Of a stretch of DNA of 64,000 nucleotides, positions 4,378 through 64,000 are shown in pieces. Location of the stretch: contig NZ_AP024620.1 in NCBI RefSeq assembly GCF_023734095.1, positions 1,608,501-1,672,500 of the forward strand. Reading direction: 5' to 3'. Made by a program: the position numbers and the translations under genes. Position 1 is the stretch's first letter, and each line of letters begins with the position of its first letter. Source of the DNA: Moorella sp. Hama-1 (GTDB taxonomy: Bacteria > Bacillota > DSM-521 > Neomoorellales > Neomoorellaceae). The notes below the pieces were generated by a model. It had not been told where the DNA came from, ran no database searches, and saw only the letters and a program-made list of their open reading frames with translations.

Positions 4378-4404
4378 TAACGCGAAATGCCTGTAAGACA
4401 TGAG

Positions 4405-4592
4405 AAGGCCGAATCCCGCAAATAATAGGGAACGGGGGAACCACCACAGGGGTGAATCCCTGCCCTCAGTCTACTTTATTGCTCTAGGTAATTCAGGGTA
4501 CTGGCGAGTAACGGAGCTGGCAGACTGGGGATGGGGTAGGGCTTGCTCCGGCCCGAACCCGGCAGCTAACCTCGCAGGCTGGAAGGGAGAGG
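4405..4592 (+). ncRNA. c-di-AMP riboswitch (ydaO-yuaA class)
   Basis: The conserved blocks of the ydaO-yuaA aptamer appear in order: AACGGGGGAACC, GGGGTGAATCC, then GGGTAGGGC, GGCCCGAACCCGGCAGCTAA and CCTCGCAGGCTGGAAGGG. A variable arm lies between the halves. Known members bind cyclic di-AMP and switch off potassium importers and osmolyte genes when the nucleotide is abundant. A rho-independent terminator follows within 25 bases, so control is probably by transcription termination. Confidence 0.95.
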
Positions 4593-4615
4593 AATTCATG
4601 GTGTTATTTTTGATG

Positions 4616-24906: not shown

Positions 24907-24927
24907 ATAAATTATAAATATCCTGGT

Positions 24928-25128
24928 ACGCTGAATTACGGCTTGGGCCGTAAACGGGGGAACCATTTCCGGGGTGAATCCCGGCCAGCAGCAGCTTTTA
25001 TTTTCCTTAAATCTTTGGGTGGATAGGCTGTCATTCAGGGATTGCCGGGGAAGGGAAGGGCTGGGCGCCGGGTAGGGCTAACTTCGGCCCGAATCCGTCA
25101 GCTAACTTCGTAAGCGTGGAAGGGAACT
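24928..25128 (+). ncRNA. c-di-AMP riboswitch (ydaO-yuaA class), second copy
   Basis: Same conserved blocks as the copy at 4.4 kb: AAACGGGGGAACC, CCGGGGTGAATCCCGG, GGGTAGGGCTAA, GGCCCGAATCCGTCAGCTAA and CTTCGTAAGCGTGGAAGGGA. The variable arm between the halves is unrelated to the first copy. It precedes trehalose biosynthesis genes, so osmolyte production and potassium uptake appear to answer to the same second messenger. Confidence 0.95.
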
Positions 25129-25168
25129 ACCGGTTAACCGGTATCGTGTTCCATGGCGTTCAAGCTAG

Positions 25169-58915: not shown

Positions 58916-59084
58916 AGTGTACCTCTGCGTCAGAAGTACCGGCTAGCCCTTTGGTAGGTAAAAAGAACCATCGCGCCGGCAGGAAATGGCCTCCCCGCGG
59001 CGAATAATATAATATTGTAGTTCCAGGCAACAACAAATTGTTAGACCAAATCAGCCAGACTACGACTTAATAAAACTTAATATT

Positions 59085-59178
59085 TACCCCCGGGGTGCCC
59101 GTGCGGGCTGAGAAGTGCCGGATAGCACTAACCCTTGGAACCTGATCTGGGTCATACCAGCGTAGGAAAGCGGGGATA
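59085..59178 (+). ncRNA. TPP riboswitch (THI element)
   Basis: The conserved blocks CGGGGTGCCC, GGCTGAGA, ACCCTTGGAACCTGATCTGG and GTAGGAAAGCGG occur in order, as in thiamine pyrophosphate riboswitches. It precedes thiC and a terminator, so binding of TPP would stop transcription. Confidence 0.97.
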
Positions 59179-59188
59179 GAGGTTTTTT

Positions 59189-59316: not shown

Positions 59317-60615
59317 ATGACGCAACTGGAAGCAGCCCAGGTGGGACAGGTAACCCGGGCCATGGAACAGGTGGCTGCCAAAGAAGGGGTAAAGGTAGAA
59401 GATTTGATGGCCGAAGTAGCCGCCGGCCGGGTGGTGATCCCGGCCAACACCAATCACCGTAACCTTCAACCCTGTGGTATTGGTAAGGGGTTAAAAACGA
59501 AGGTTAACGCCAACCTGGGAACTTCTACGGCTTATCCCGACCTGGAGCCGGAGCTAGCTAAACTCCGGATGGCCCTGGAGGCCGGGGCTGATGCCGTCAT
59601 GGATTTGAGTACCGGCGGCGATATTAACGACTGCCGGCGCCAGGTCCTCGCCCAGGCCCCGGTTGCCGTCGGCACCGTCCCTATTTACCAGGCCACAGTG
59701 GAGGCCCAGGAGCGCTATGGTGCCCTGGTAAAGATGACCGCCGATGATCTTTTCGAAGTGATCGAGGAACAGGCCGCCGACGGCGTCGACTTTATTACCG
59801 TGCACTGCGGCGTCACCCTGGAGGTAGTCGACCGCCTGCGCCGGGAAGGCCGCTTGACGGACATCGTCAGCCGGGGGGGTTCCTTTTTAACGGGCTGGAT
59901 GCTGCATAACGAACAAGAGAACCCCCTCTACGCCCAGTATGATCGCCTGCTGGCGATCGCCCACCGCTATGACGTCACCCTGAGCCTGGGGGATGGTCTG
60001 CGGCCCGGCTGCCTGGCCGACGCCACCGACCGGGCCCAGATCCAGGAACTCATTATCCTGGGTGAACTGGTGGATCGGGCCCGGGAAGCCGGGGTCCAGG
60101 CCATGGTGGAAGGCCCCGGCCATGTACCTTTGCACCAAGTCCAGGCCAATATCCTCCTGGAAAAAAGGCTCTGCCACGAGGCGCCCTTCTACGTCCTGGG
60201 CCCCCTGGTTACCGATGTCGCCCCAGGATACGATCACATTACCGCCGCTATTGGCGGTGCCCTGGCGGCCACAGCCGGGGCCGACTTTATCTGCTACGTC
60301 ACCCCGGCCGAACACCTGGGCCTCCCCACTTTGAGCGACGTCCGGGAAGGTGTCATGGCCGCCCGCATTGCCGCCCACGCAGCCGACCTGGCGAAAGGAT
60401 TGCCGGGCGCCTGGGAGTGGGACCGGGAAATGGCTCGGGCACGCAAGGCCCTGGACTGGCAACGTCAACTAGAACTGGCCCTGGATCCCGAAAAGGCCCG
60501 CCAGTATCGCCGGAATCGCAATGAGGCTGCTGCCGTTGCCTGTTCCATGTGCGGTGACTTCTGTGCCATGCGCCTGGTTGGGAAATACCTGGGGAAACCG
60601 GTAGATGAATGCTAG
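59317..60615 (+). CDS. thiC: Phosphomethylpyrimidine synthase
   Basis: 432 residues, short (anaerobe-type) ThiC. Radical SAM enzyme converting aminoimidazole ribotide to the thiamine pyrimidine. Motifs [40 protein letters not shown] and [15 protein letters not shown] are intact. The C-terminal cluster motif is [10 protein letters not shown]2CX3C rather than the CX2CX4C of long-form enzymes. GGAGG precedes ATG 59317. Controlled by the TPP riboswitch upstream. Confidence 0.97.
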
Positions 60616-60754: not shown

Positions 60755-61191
60755 TTAGGTTACACTACCGTCTCGGCTTTTGTCCAACGCTTTTTCAACG
60801 GCCAGGCGGACAATGATATTGGGATGGTTTAAATAGGAAGATAAAAATCCCCTGGCCTTCTTGGCATTAATTTTCATGAGGGCCATGGCCGCGTTTGCCT
60901 GGATATAAGGATCACGAGTACCTTTTTAAAAACCTCCTGCAACGCTGGCACAGCGGCTTCTGCTTCGGGGCCTAACATTCCCAATATCGTAATTGCCCGG
61001 AGAACCGTTTCCCGATCCCGGTGTTCCAAGGCCCAGATTAACTTATCCAGGTAAGCCTCGTTTCGGCTTTCATCCAAAAAAGCTCCACATTCCTGACACT
61101 TGGTGACGGCAATGCTATTAGGTGCGTAACATCGTGGACAAAATTTATTGATAACCAATCCCTCCTTGCCCCTTTTATCACCAGCTAACAT
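60755..61191 (-). pseudogene. Zinc-ribbon/HEAT-repeat protein with a -1 frameshift
   Basis: The first frame (from 61191) encodes a zinc ribbon (CPRCYAPN...CQECGAF) and a HEAT-like repeat ending VPALQEVF, then stops at 60874 after a run of unrelated residues. In the -1 frame the HEAT pattern continues immediately (TRDPYIQANAAMALMKINAK, HPNIIVRLAVEKALD) to a stop at 60755. The shift falls at TTTTTAAAAAGG around 60921-60932. This is a mutation, a sequencing error, or programmed slippage. It follows DUF190 by 57 bases on the same strand. Confidence 0.8.
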
Positions 61192-61248: not shown

Positions 61249-61608
61249 CTATTCAAGGTTGGGTTTGCTGGTGTTTTTAGCGCCTTCATCCCGCCAAATA
61301 ATCTCTACATCAGACACCGTTATCAGCCCCTGGGTTACCATCGTTTGCATCTGGGGCAAGACAGTAGCAATTTTGTCGGCTTGATCAACTGCCTCGACAA
61401 TCACAGGCAGGTCGTAAGAAAGCTCTATCAGCCGGGCCGAATAAATACTACGGCGTTTACCGTAGCCTTCGATACCCCGGATAACCGTAACCCCTGCTAA
61501 ACCGGCCTCCTTTAATTTTAACACCAGAGCATGGTAGAGGGTCTTTCCTTGCCACTTAACACCTTCTCCCACGTAAATTGTTAGAAGTTTGGCAGGTATG
61601 CTGTTCAT
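61249..61608 (-). CDS. DUF190 domain-containing protein
   Basis: 119 residues. Family landmarks: LLTIYVGEGVKWQGKTLYHALV, GLAGVTVIRGIEGYG, and LSYDLPVIVEAVDQADKI. DUF190 proteins are PII-like ferredoxin-fold proteins often encoded beside CrcB/Fluc fluoride channels. Here no crcB is visible, but a fluoride riboswitch-like RNA lies directly upstream. GGAGGGGG precedes ATG. First gene of the minus-strand arm of the fluoride locus. Confidence 0.9.
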   Translation of the reverse strand: MNSIPAKLLTIYVGEGVKWQGKTLYHALVLKLKEAGLAGVTVIRGIEGYGKRRSIYSARLIELSYDLPVIVEAVDQADKIATVLPQMQTMVTQGLITVSDVEIIWRDEGAKNTSKPNLE

Positions 61609-61727: not shown

Positions 61728-61812
61728 CAAAAACTCCTGTCCTTTACAGACAGGAGTCATCAGCGCTTAAGGCGCATTTTCGAGGTCCTCGGGGCCGACT
61801 CCTTGGCCCTAA
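61728..61812 (-). ncRNA. Variant fluoride riboswitch with terminator, upstream of DUF190
   Basis: On the minus strand GGGCC-AAGGAGTC-GGCCC forms the first hairpin, whose loop GGAGTC is complementary to GACTCC in the conserved 3' element CTGATGACTCC. A second stem GCGC/GCGC lies between, preceded by AAAA. The plus-strand aptamer 61973-62030 has the same layout. Deviations are loop base two (A, normally U) and an extra small hairpin CGAG-GAC-CTCG. The 3' strand ACTCCTGTC then pairs with GACAGGAGT before a T-run, a terminator that would compete with the aptamer. Confidence 0.75.
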
Positions 61813-61816
61813 CTTA

Positions 61817-61845
61817 ACTATATATTTTTTATTATTAAATGTCAA
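61817..61845 (-). promoter_or_regulatory. Promoter of the DUF190 arm
   Basis: On the minus strand TTGACA (61845-61840) is followed after 17 bases by TATAGT (61822-61817). Start would fall at or just before the first base of the riboswitch aptamer. Confidence 0.85.
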
Positions 61846-61878
61846 TTTCTTTGCTATATAATTTTAGACCATTTCCCC

Positions 61879-61907
61879 TTGACATACTAAAGGCTGGGCT
61901 GTTAAAT
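61879..61907 (+). promoter_or_regulatory. Promoter of the dynamin-like/eno arm
   Basis: TTGACA at 61879-61884, a 17-base spacer and TTAAAT at 61902-61907. It gives a leader of about 190 bases that carries the fluoride aptamer. The promoter is back-to-back with that of DUF190, only about 35 bases apart. Confidence 0.75.
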
Positions 61908-61972
61908 TTATATACGAACGGGAAGTATATCTGTACTACTTTGTTTCATGGGCATAGAGAAAAGCTGGCCGC

Positions 61973-62099
61973 AAACGGTGATGGAGTTCACCGGAAAACC
62001 ACCCGCAAGGGTTGATGACTCCTACCAAGGAGCAATTCCTGGTAGGAGAATGTGCAATTGTCCCAACTCCTACCAGGTAGAATCTGGAGGAGTTTTTTT
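61973..62099 (+). ncRNA. Fluoride riboswitch (crcB motif) with expression platform
   Basis: CGGTG-ATGGAGTT-CACCG is the first hairpin; its loop GGAGT pairs with ACTCC in the conserved GATGACTCCTACC. AAAACC and the ACCC/GGGT stem lie between them, as in known fluoride aptamers. CTCCTACCA occurs twice (62019-62027 and 62067-62075), and its complement TGGTAGGAG once between them (62040-62048). Without fluoride the first copy can pair with the complement, leaving the terminator (AACTCC...GGAGTT then seven T) to form. If fluoride holds the first copy in the aptamer, the complement can pair with the second copy and break the terminator. The 3' arm includes the GGAGGAG ribosome binding site. Confidence 0.95.
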
Positions 62100-63902
62100 A
62101 TGAGCCAGGTAAGAGAAGAATGGCAAGTAAAGGCAGTTCCCAAGGTCACAAAAGATCTACCTCTCCTTTTCCGGCAAACCCTGGAAGGTCTAAATAGCTT
62201 GGGGCCAGACTTTGCTAACGAGAGGCAAAAGATCAAGGCCTTACAAGAGCGACTTGTAAACGAACGCTTTCACCTTGCCGTTCTCGGGCAGTTCAAGCGC
62301 GGTAAAAGTACCTTTATAAACGCTCTTCTGGGCGATGAAGTGTTACCCACGGCCATCCTCCCCCTGACTGCCGTTCCCACCTTTCTTCTCTGGGGTCCCG
62401 AGGCCCGTGTACGCGTTCTCCGCCAGGAAAGCCTTCAAAAAGAAGAATTTACAGGGCAGGACAATAGGGCTTTAACTGCTTTTCTGGCGCAATTCGTTAC
62501 TGAAGCAGGGAATCCCAAAAATCATAAAAAGGTATCCCAGGTTGAAGTCTTCTACCCCTCCCCCCTTCTTCTTAAAGGAGTAGTCTTAATCGATACTCCC
62601 GGCATCGGTTCCACTTTCCGGCATAACACTGAAGCCACCCTTAACTTCCTGCCCCAATGTGACGCTGCTTTATTTCTCGTTTCGGCAGATCCGCCGATCA
62701 CCGAGGTAGAAGTGGAATTTCTGAAAGCGGTCCGTTCCAGGGTTACTCACCTTTTCTTTATTTTAAATAAGATAGACTATCTTAATAAGGAAGAAATAGC
62801 ATCTCTCTTAACCTTCATTAAAAATGTTTTGCGGGAGCAAGTTGGTATAGAAGGAGCCCCTCCCATCTTCTGCGTATCGGCCCGTCTGGGACTTGAGGCT
62901 CGCAAAACAAATGATACCACCCTCTGGAATCATAGCGGCCTGGAAGAAGTCTGGCGTTATCTTGTTGATTTTCTTGCTCGCGATAAAAACAACGCCCTGC
63001 AGGCAGCCCTGGCTAAAAAAGCCACCGATATAATTGCCGACATTATAATGCGCTTGCACCTTACCATTCGTTCCTTGGAGATGCCCCTGGCTGAACTGGA
63101 TGACCGCCTGCAAATATTTGAGAAAAAAATTCAGGAGGCTGAGCAGCAACGAGTCTTGCTGGGAGATCTCCTGGCCGGCGACCGGAAACGAATGGTGGCG
63201 TTTCTGGAAGAACAAGCTGAAACCTTACGTCAGAAGGCCCGGACTCACCTGCAAGGAATTGTCGAGGACCGTCTAGCCGGAATGGGGAACAGGTTTAATG
63301 ACAATACAATCCAGGAAACCCTGGCCAAGGTCATCCCTGATTTTTTTGAACATGAGCTCGGTGAAATGGCGCGTATTTTTGACCAGCGGGTTACCGAAAC
63401 GATGCGCCCCTACCAACAACGTGTCGATGAACTGATTGAGGCGGTGCGGAAAACAGCGGCCGAGCTTTTTGACGTTCCTTATCATGCTCCCAGTAGTTCC
63501 GGCGCTTTTGAGATGAAACGCCAGCCGTATTGGGTAACCCACAAGTGGGATTCCAGTTTTAGCCTTCTCCCGGAAGGTATATTTACCAGGCTTTTGCCAG
63601 CAGGAATACGCCGGGCAAAGATGATAAAACAATTGGGGCAACAAATTGAAGCATTAGTTTTGAACAACGTGGAAAACTTACGTTGGGCTACTTTGCAGAA
63701 TCTTGATCAAGCCTTCCGGCGTTTCGGATCCAGCCTCGATGAGCGTCTCCAAGCAACCGTCTTGGCTACCCAGGGAGCCATTCAGGCGGCCCGGTCGAAA
63801 CGCCAGGAGCAGAACCAAAACACGGTTCAAGGGATTAGCAGGTTCCGTTCCATCACCAAGGAATTCCAGGAGATCCAGGCCAAATTCAAGGCATTATATT
63901 AA
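62100..63902 (+). CDS. Bacterial dynamin-like GTPase, first gene of a fluoride-riboswitch operon
   Basis: 600 residues. GTPase motifs: P-loop GQFKRGKST at 63-71, switch threonine near 84-90, DTPG at 165-168 and NKID at 223-226, matching the dynamin superfamily. The rest is mostly helical and charged with probable coiled coil; no clear transmembrane segment was seen. Such proteins remodel membranes, but the function here is unknown. ATG 62100 follows GGAGGAG directly and the terminator T-run; a TTG frame from 62052 lies in the riboswitch and is not used. Enolase starts 21 bases downstream, implying one fluoride-regulated operon. The gene is more AT-rich than the window average. Confidence 0.92.
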   Translation: MSQVREEWQVKAVPKVTKDLPLLFRQTLEGLNSLGPDFANERQKIKALQERLVNERFHLAVLGQFKRGKSTFINALLGDEVLPTAILPLTAVPTFLLWGPEARVRVLRQESLQKEEFTGQDNRALTAFLAQFVTEAGNPKNHKKVSQVEVFYPSPLLLKGVVLIDTPGIGSTFRHNTEATLNFLPQCDAALFLVSADPPITEVEVEFLKAVRSRVTHLFFILNKIDYLNKEEIASLLTFIKNVLREQVGIEGAPPIFCVSARLGLEARKTNDTTLWNHSGLEEVWRYLVDFLARDKNNALQAALAKKATDIIADIIMRLHLTIRSLEMPLAELDDRLQIFEKKIQEAEQQRVLLGDLLAGDRKRMVAFLEEQAETLRQKARTHLQGIVEDRLAGMGNRFNDNTIQETLAKVIPDFFEHELGEMARIFDQRVTETMRPYQQRVDELIEAVRKTAAELFDVPYHAPSSSGAFEMKRQPYWVTHKWDSSFSLLPEGIFTRLLPAGIRRAKMIKQLGQQIEALVLNNVENLRWATLQNLDQAFRRFGSSLDERLQATVLATQGAIQAARSKRQEQNQNTVQGISRFRSITKEFQEIQAKFKALY

Positions 63903-63923: not shown

Positions 63924-64000
63924 ATGAAAGGTAAAATCGTATCTATTCGCTCATTGGAAGTCCTAGACTCCCGCGGCAACCCTACACTTCGGGTTTATGT
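63924..64000 (+). CDS. eno: Enolase, N-terminus only (cut by window edge)
   Basis: The visible 25 residues, MKGKIVSIRSLEVLDSRGNP onward, are the conserved enolase N-terminus. Enolase interconverts 2-phosphoglycerate and phosphoenolpyruvate and is inhibited by fluoride together with phosphate and Mg2+. Fluoride riboswitches are known to precede eno in some bacteria. ATG 63924 has AAGGGGA upstream. An out-of-frame ATG at 63920 stops within five codons. Confidence 0.95.
   Translation, partial: MKGKIVSIRSLEVLDSRGNPTLRVY

Follow-up and report, generated by a model that had tools for sequence, protein, structure and literature searches.

The fluoride riboswitches that precede crcB in Thermotoga petrophila and Bacillus cereus are the closest described relatives of the RNAs considered here, with which they have in common a P1 helix with an 8-nt loop, a P2 helix, a pseudoknot between that loop and the 3′ strand, a conserved UGAUG segment, the long-range pairs A6-U38 and A40-U48, and a terminator platform that uses the pseudoknot strand. 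In the usual fluoride ON design the terminator shares a strand with the aptamer, GACUCCU in the minus leader described below. U7 belongs to the residues that hold a Mg2+ ion through their phosphate; in the 2012 structure of Ren et al. it is reportedly the phosphate of residue 7, not its base, that is used. Both long-range pairs, with the linchpin, and the essential U41 are reported to be critical in fluoride aptamers (PMC11586693, PMC8752731, PMC11077080).

Near one end of the window, by which we mean the whole 64,000-nucleotide stretch of Moorella sp. Hama-1 DNA that was analysed, two RNAs of this type diverge from neighboring promoters. Very probably they are two divergently oriented riboswitches that fluoride turns ON, one for a DUF190 gene and the other for a dynamin-like GTPase and a second enolase (Table 1).

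Two opposed matches to the fluoride riboswitch model

Infernal scoring of both strands against the Rfam model RF01734 (Fluoride), for which the curators set a gathering cut-off of 34 bits, gives 55.6 bits for the plus strand and 32.9 bits for the minus strand. The minus-strand match (61817-61744) is therefore 1.1 bits below the gathering score, with E-values of 1.5e-6 in this stretch and 3.5e-7 in the genome; the latter speaks against a score no better than random. Its minus-strand ortholog in M. stamsii reaches 34.6 bits, above the cut-off. The copy scores 93.2 bits against model R1, of which it is itself a member. Over ten aligned copies 95% of the pair cells are kept, and the six pseudoknot pairs from 8-47 to 13-42 are invariant. 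Identity as a fluoride aptamer follows from the covariance-model score together with orthology and a neighborhood that includes crcB, antiporter, UspA and mutS-like genes, and on this evidence the minus-strand RNA is a member of the fluoride riboswitch family. The sequence-only reading had proposed two fluoride-riboswitch-like RNAs in opposite directions, a proposal that both RF01734 matches support; the pair is conserved, and the M. stamsii copy exceeds the cut-off.

Table 1. Predicted features of the two leaders, their genes and the further RF01734-like copies. Unprefixed coordinates are window positions; locus L009 crosses the window edge.
Feature	Coordinates	Strand	Evidence or remark
Zinc-ribbon/HEAT-like small protein gene	60874..61191	-	Weak HEAT_2, below cut-off
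DUF190 (PF02641, COG1993) gene	61249..61608	-	E 2e-35; 121.4 bits against a Pfam gathering score of 23.4
Intrinsic terminator, 11 bp, then U5GU4	61732..61758	-	-17.0 kcal/mol
Variant fluoride riboswitch aptamer	61744..61817	-	RF01734, 32.9 bits
-10 box TATAGT	61817..61822	-	Conserved; transcript start expected at about the first P1 base
DUF190 leader promoter, -35 box (TTGACA)	61840..61845	-	Aligned across three species, also in L048
Promoter of the plus leader, TTGACA-18-TAAATT (or TTGACA-17-TTAAAT)	61879..61908	+	Aligned in three species, also in L048
Canonical fluoride riboswitch aptamer (U7)	61968..62031	+	RF01734, 55.6 bits
Four-arm expression platform A/B/C/D	62019..62093	+	Arms found in L046, L047, L048
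Dynamin-like GTPase gene	62100..63902	+	PF00350, E 1.6e-28
Second enolase gene, start only, runs beyond the window	63924..64000 (L009 3924-5201)	+	Starts about 20 bases past the stop codon of the GTPase gene
RF01734-like copy, post-enolase, with terminator	L009 5240-5321	+	About 1.2 kb beyond the window end
RF01734-like copy before MFS transporter	L009 10343-10268	-	Genome scan
RF01734-like copy before antiporter-UspA pair	L009 12169-12111	-	Genome scan
Sixth RF01734 copy	526.6 kb		Before crcB1-crcB2-DUF190 operon (526.6-528.7 kb)

The minus-strand leader and DUF190

For the minus strand the earlier reading had described a TTGACA-17-TATAGT promoter right before the RNA, a terminator sharing its 3′ strand, an A for U in the loop, an extra hairpin and a DUF190 gene behind the RNA, all of which were recovered at the coordinates given there. 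The promoter spans 61845-61817 and the aptamer starts directly after it. The parts of the aptamer are P1 (GGCC/GGCC), the loop AAGGAGUC, P2 (GCGC/GCGC) and UGAUGACUCCU, with the extra hairpin (CGAG-GAC-CUCG, 61791-61781) inserted in J1/2, where P1 is joined to P2. In Thermotoga petrophila numbering the loop reads A6 A7 G8 G9 A10 G11 U12 C13, the substitution being U7 to A; the 3′ strand is intact (U38 G39 A40 U41 G42 A43 C44 U45 C46 C47 U48), A6, U38, A40, U41 and U48 are all kept, and every pseudoknot pair from 8-47 to 13-42 is Watson-Crick. The pseudoknot strand GACUCC (61758-61753) doubles as the 5′ strand of the terminator (61758-61732), which uses GACUCCUGUC, so that the expression platform would compete with the pseudoknot strand. 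A fixed promoter scan gave two sites against 3.4 expected in shuffles and by itself is no better than chance.

The next gene on the minus strand (61608-61249) encodes the DUF190 protein. The family had been described as a frequent neighbor of fluoride channels, and of the nine Moorella genomes that have crcB, seven do carry DUF190 next to it; in G069 a putative DUF190-like frame comes after crcB. A literature search found no paper tying DUF190 to fluoride. The zinc-ribbon/HEAT-like gene probably lies downstream in the DUF190 transcript, and a 51% identical homolog is located downstream of a related switch in G017 (L053 1487-1894), making this small protein a candidate new fluoride-linked gene. 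The G017 homolog is accompanied by a 309-aa gene.

The plus-strand leader and a second enolase

On the plus strand the aptamer leads into four arms: A (CUCCUACC) at 62019, B (GGUAGGAG) at 62041, C (CUCCUACC) at 62067 and D (GGAGGAG) at 62086. Arm D is also the Shine-Dalgarno sequence, and the C:D hairpin (62066-62093) is followed by a run of seven U. The folding energies of B:C and C:D are nearly equal (-13.5 and -14.7 kcal/mol). With arm A blocked, a simple two-state thermodynamic fold still favored C:D over B:C and did not reproduce an antiterminator, so the switching choice on this strand would have to be kinetic.

The second enolase is 63% identical to the housekeeping enolase of the same genome (G000:C1:274125) and probably shares a transcript with the dynamin-like GTPase, governed by the plus-strand switch. 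The other Moorella genomes searched have no second enolase and a single enolase each, that of G004 being split in two pieces on one contig. Enolase is a classic fluoride target, and induction of a spare copy by fluoride is plausible. Elsewhere among bacteria, too, genes for dynamin-family GTPases come directly 3′ of fluoride riboswitches (L100, L101, L158). The distribution of the dynamin-like GTPase suggests that it is a recurrent member of the fluoride regulon.

A predicted fluoride island across the window edge

A whole-genome scan found six RF01734 matches with E < 0.001, five of them within about 10.5 kb in an island that crosses the window edge (L009) and holds the divergent pair and three more RF01734-like copies. 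The compact fluoride regulon proposed earlier would be larger than first described, with five such RNAs and a spare enolase. Genes beside the further copies encode a Na+/H+ antiporter, UspA, MFS and MutS-like proteins; crcB, DUF190, UspA, antiporter, MFS and MutS-like neighbors are typical of fluoride islands and so support the assignment as fluoride switches. The post-enolase copy has no clear intact gene after it on the same strand, which would suit either a relic or a 3′ element. A7 is common to the DUF190, MFS and post-enolase copies, and a clear J1/2 hairpin is present in the first two. In contrast to the usual crcB-DUF190 neighborhood, the DUF190 gene of the window lies 1.1 Mb from crcB, and the genome has a second operon, crcB1-crcB2-DUF190, with its own switch-like RNA. 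Moorella is an acetogen genus, and the arrangement points to a compact fluoride response, with as many as five riboswitch-like copies within some 10.5 kb and with predicted control by fluoride of a dynamin-like GTPase, DUF190 and a spare enolase.

The window contains other riboswitch matches as well. Two c-di-AMP (ydaO/yuaA) riboswitches at most 21 kb apart are found on the plus strand at 4397-4596 and 24919-25131 (83.5 and 82.7 bits, above the cut-off), and a plus-strand TPP riboswitch (59081-59188) is directly upstream of thiC (59317-60615).

Conservation of the divergent pair

The divergent pair is present with both promoters in 4 of 11 Moorella species (G000, the genome described here, G001, G007, which is M. 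stamsii, and G008); the sampled relatives are not independent of one another phylogenetically. An alignment of three species contains the aptamer, the terminator and both promoters, and the fourth also carries them, which argues for more than chance. The gene order shared by G007 and G008 starts with crcB1-crcB2 and the switch belonging to them, followed by a facing DUF190, the switch pair, a dynamin-like gene, two MutS-like genes and MFS, so that M. stamsii and one other relative (L046, L048) have crcB in the same island; in G007 a UspA-antiporter follows MFS, and the dynamin-like match covers the first 103 residues only. The window copy and that of M. stamsii, both with an intact DUF190, retain every pair of P1, P2 and the pseudoknot; the minus copy of G008 has one broken P2 pair.

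Loss and decay are seen in G001, G002 and G006. G001 has neither crcB nor DUF190 anywhere in the genome, and in its orphan minus aptamer (L047) U38 has become C, as expected under relaxed selection. G002 retains a DUF190 gene and promoter without the aptamer, and G006 has a partial copy. A functional switch linked to DUF190 is consistent with such gains, losses and decay. Just past the orphan aptamer of G001, the locus (L047 1-3760) has apparent transposition genes, as read from its sequence.

Variation at position 7

Position 7 of the minus copy is A, so the copy departs from the U7 of the canonical aptamer, and the sequence-only reading had accordingly been cautious about this variant. A pattern scan for non-U7 aptamers in 84,980 species genomes gave 96 DNA stretches. 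Among the 80 loci listed there are 81 pattern matches, most of which form P1; they come mainly from Acidobacteriota, and also from Proteobacteria, Desulfobacterota, Halanaerobiales, Nitrospira and Moorella. In 18 of 20 tested loci the pattern match falls within an RF01734 match that exceeds the gathering score, the exceptions being L118 and L098, and L098 has at least two other RF01734 matches despite its uncovered pattern match. Aptamers with A7 or G7 thus score above the Rfam cut-off, those with A7 also in other phyla, and A7 as an oddity of Moorella alone is ruled out by their occurrence in several phyla. Non-U7 aptamers precede genes for CrcB (L136, L174), Na+/H+ antiporters (L152), MFS (L149, L151), dynamin-like GTPases (L100, L101, L158) and a membrane subunit of the hydrogenase/complex-I type (L105). 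The congeneric G069 and G107 (L253, L252) have 48-base aptamers before orthologous crcB genes that are identical apart from U7 in one and A7 in the other. Scores above the cut-off elsewhere, positions before crcB and this single-base pair together indicate that A7 stays within the family.

A base other than U stands at position 7 in 81 of 183 distinct aptamers, mostly from the search that selected for non-U7; among the 92 distinct aptamers not chosen by the pattern (a Bacillota sample), U7 is found in 85 and another base in seven, six of them from Moorella. In practice, across the sequences compared, U7 is not defining for the fluoride riboswitch family, and the earlier caution was needless as far as membership is concerned, A7 aptamers being common in other phyla and occurring before crcB.

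Positions 7 and 49 may vary together: in the 183 distinct aptamers U7 occurs with A49 in 77 of 102 and non-U7 with non-A49 in 76 of 81, the non-U7 set having been picked by pattern. In 40 non-redundant aptamers the association has a p of only 0.02, and at least one other position is more strongly associated with position 7 than 49 is, which weakens true 7-49 base-pair covariation to a suggestion only. The combination U7-G49 occurs in G017 and G069. One may speculate that aptamers with A7 or G7 and G49 arose through a U7-G49 intermediate and form a separate subtype that differs in fluoride threshold or in the kinetics of switching, and that the pair combines a canonical sensor with this subtype so that DUF190 and GTPase/enolase respond at different fluoride levels, but we consider this doubtful. 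Since a residue in the fluoride-binding pocket differs among natural aptamers, ready-made variants for structure-function tests are at hand. Within 5 kb, locus L103 from Candidatus Sulfotelmatobacter carries five fluoride riboswitches, of which some have G7.

Alternative explanations

The minus RNA could be a derivative that has lost fluoride sensing or changed its ligand, owing to A7 and the J1/2 hairpin insert. U7 is indeed the majority base, and the three A7 copies of this genome are all below the Rfam cut-off. However, residue 7 reportedly contributes its phosphate rather than its base (Ren et al. 2012), A7 aptamers elsewhere exceed the cut-off and precede crcB, the congeneric aptamers before orthologous crcB differ at position 7 only, and J1/2 inserts are also seen in other matches such as L113 and L244; we regard such a derivative as unlikely. 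A degenerate relic whose terminator alone matters, giving low constitutive expression of DUF190, is likewise unlikely. Relics do occur, in the form of the orphan U38C copy of G001, the partial copy in G006 and the copy behind the second enolase in this genome, and the DUF190 of G002 has no aptamer, but the helices and pseudoknot are kept where DUF190 is intact (in the window and M. stamsii, with the one broken P2 pair in G008) and the loss of U38 falls in a genome without DUF190.

Chance resemblance, in which an ordinary terminator hairpin after another hairpin fits the model by accident, would account for a minus-strand score below the gathering cut-off and for a promoter scan no better than shuffles. 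It is nevertheless rejected as having a negligible probability, because the element is conserved and has an ortholog above the cut-off; the genome E-value, the conservation of the pair in four species and the paralogous copies before other fluoride-type genes stand against it too.

A model for the two switches

The preferred reading, a divergent pair of fluoride-responsive ON switches, builds on sequence-based observations of presence, covariance-model match, conservation, terminators and gene order; fluoride binding, the direction of switching, the extent of the operons and the B:C antiterminator we infer. Each leader would have a separate promoter of the sigma-A type, with about 33 bp between the two -35 boxes. 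When fluoride is absent, the GACUCCU strand of the minus leader would pair into the terminator hairpin and DUF190 would be off. With fluoride, three Mg2+ ions and the fluoride would lock the loop AAGGAGUC to GACUCC and form the A40-U48 pair, blocking the terminator so that RNA polymerase reads into DUF190 and probably also the zinc-ribbon/HEAT gene. The J1/2 insert could alter affinity.

On the plus strand, the OFF state would consist of A:B plus C:D, the C:D terminator also hiding the Shine-Dalgarno sequence. In the ON state fluoride would hold arm A in the aptamer, leaving B to pair with C, which would block C:D and turn on the GTPase and second enolase. B:C can form before D is transcribed, which would make the choice a kinetic one.

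Comparison with known systems

Relative to the known crcB riboswitches, the minus copy differs in A7, G49 and the 4-bp J1/2 hairpin insert, and its C13-G42 pair is Watson-Crick whereas Bacillus cereus has a wobble there. The plus copy has a canonical aptamer but a four-arm platform, with a terminator that also covers the Shine-Dalgarno sequence. Among the matches listed for 398 genomes of the phylum there is no other divergent pair, and weak matches may have been missed. Candidatus Formimonas warabiya (L098) and Acidobacteriota (L103, L133) do have divergent pairs. As in Moorella, these consist of two opposed RF01734-type aptamers, about 95-230 bases apart, but they control other genes, e.g. 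DUF6062. The likeness of L103 and L133 to the Moorella pair is confined to the aptamers, whereas the minus aptamer and terminator of L098 are very like the Moorella variant. As judged from these loci, the divergent arrangement is uncommon but recurrent, and the Moorella pair is a neat example of an already known kind, whose unusual second sensor is by its sequence a member of the RF01734 family.
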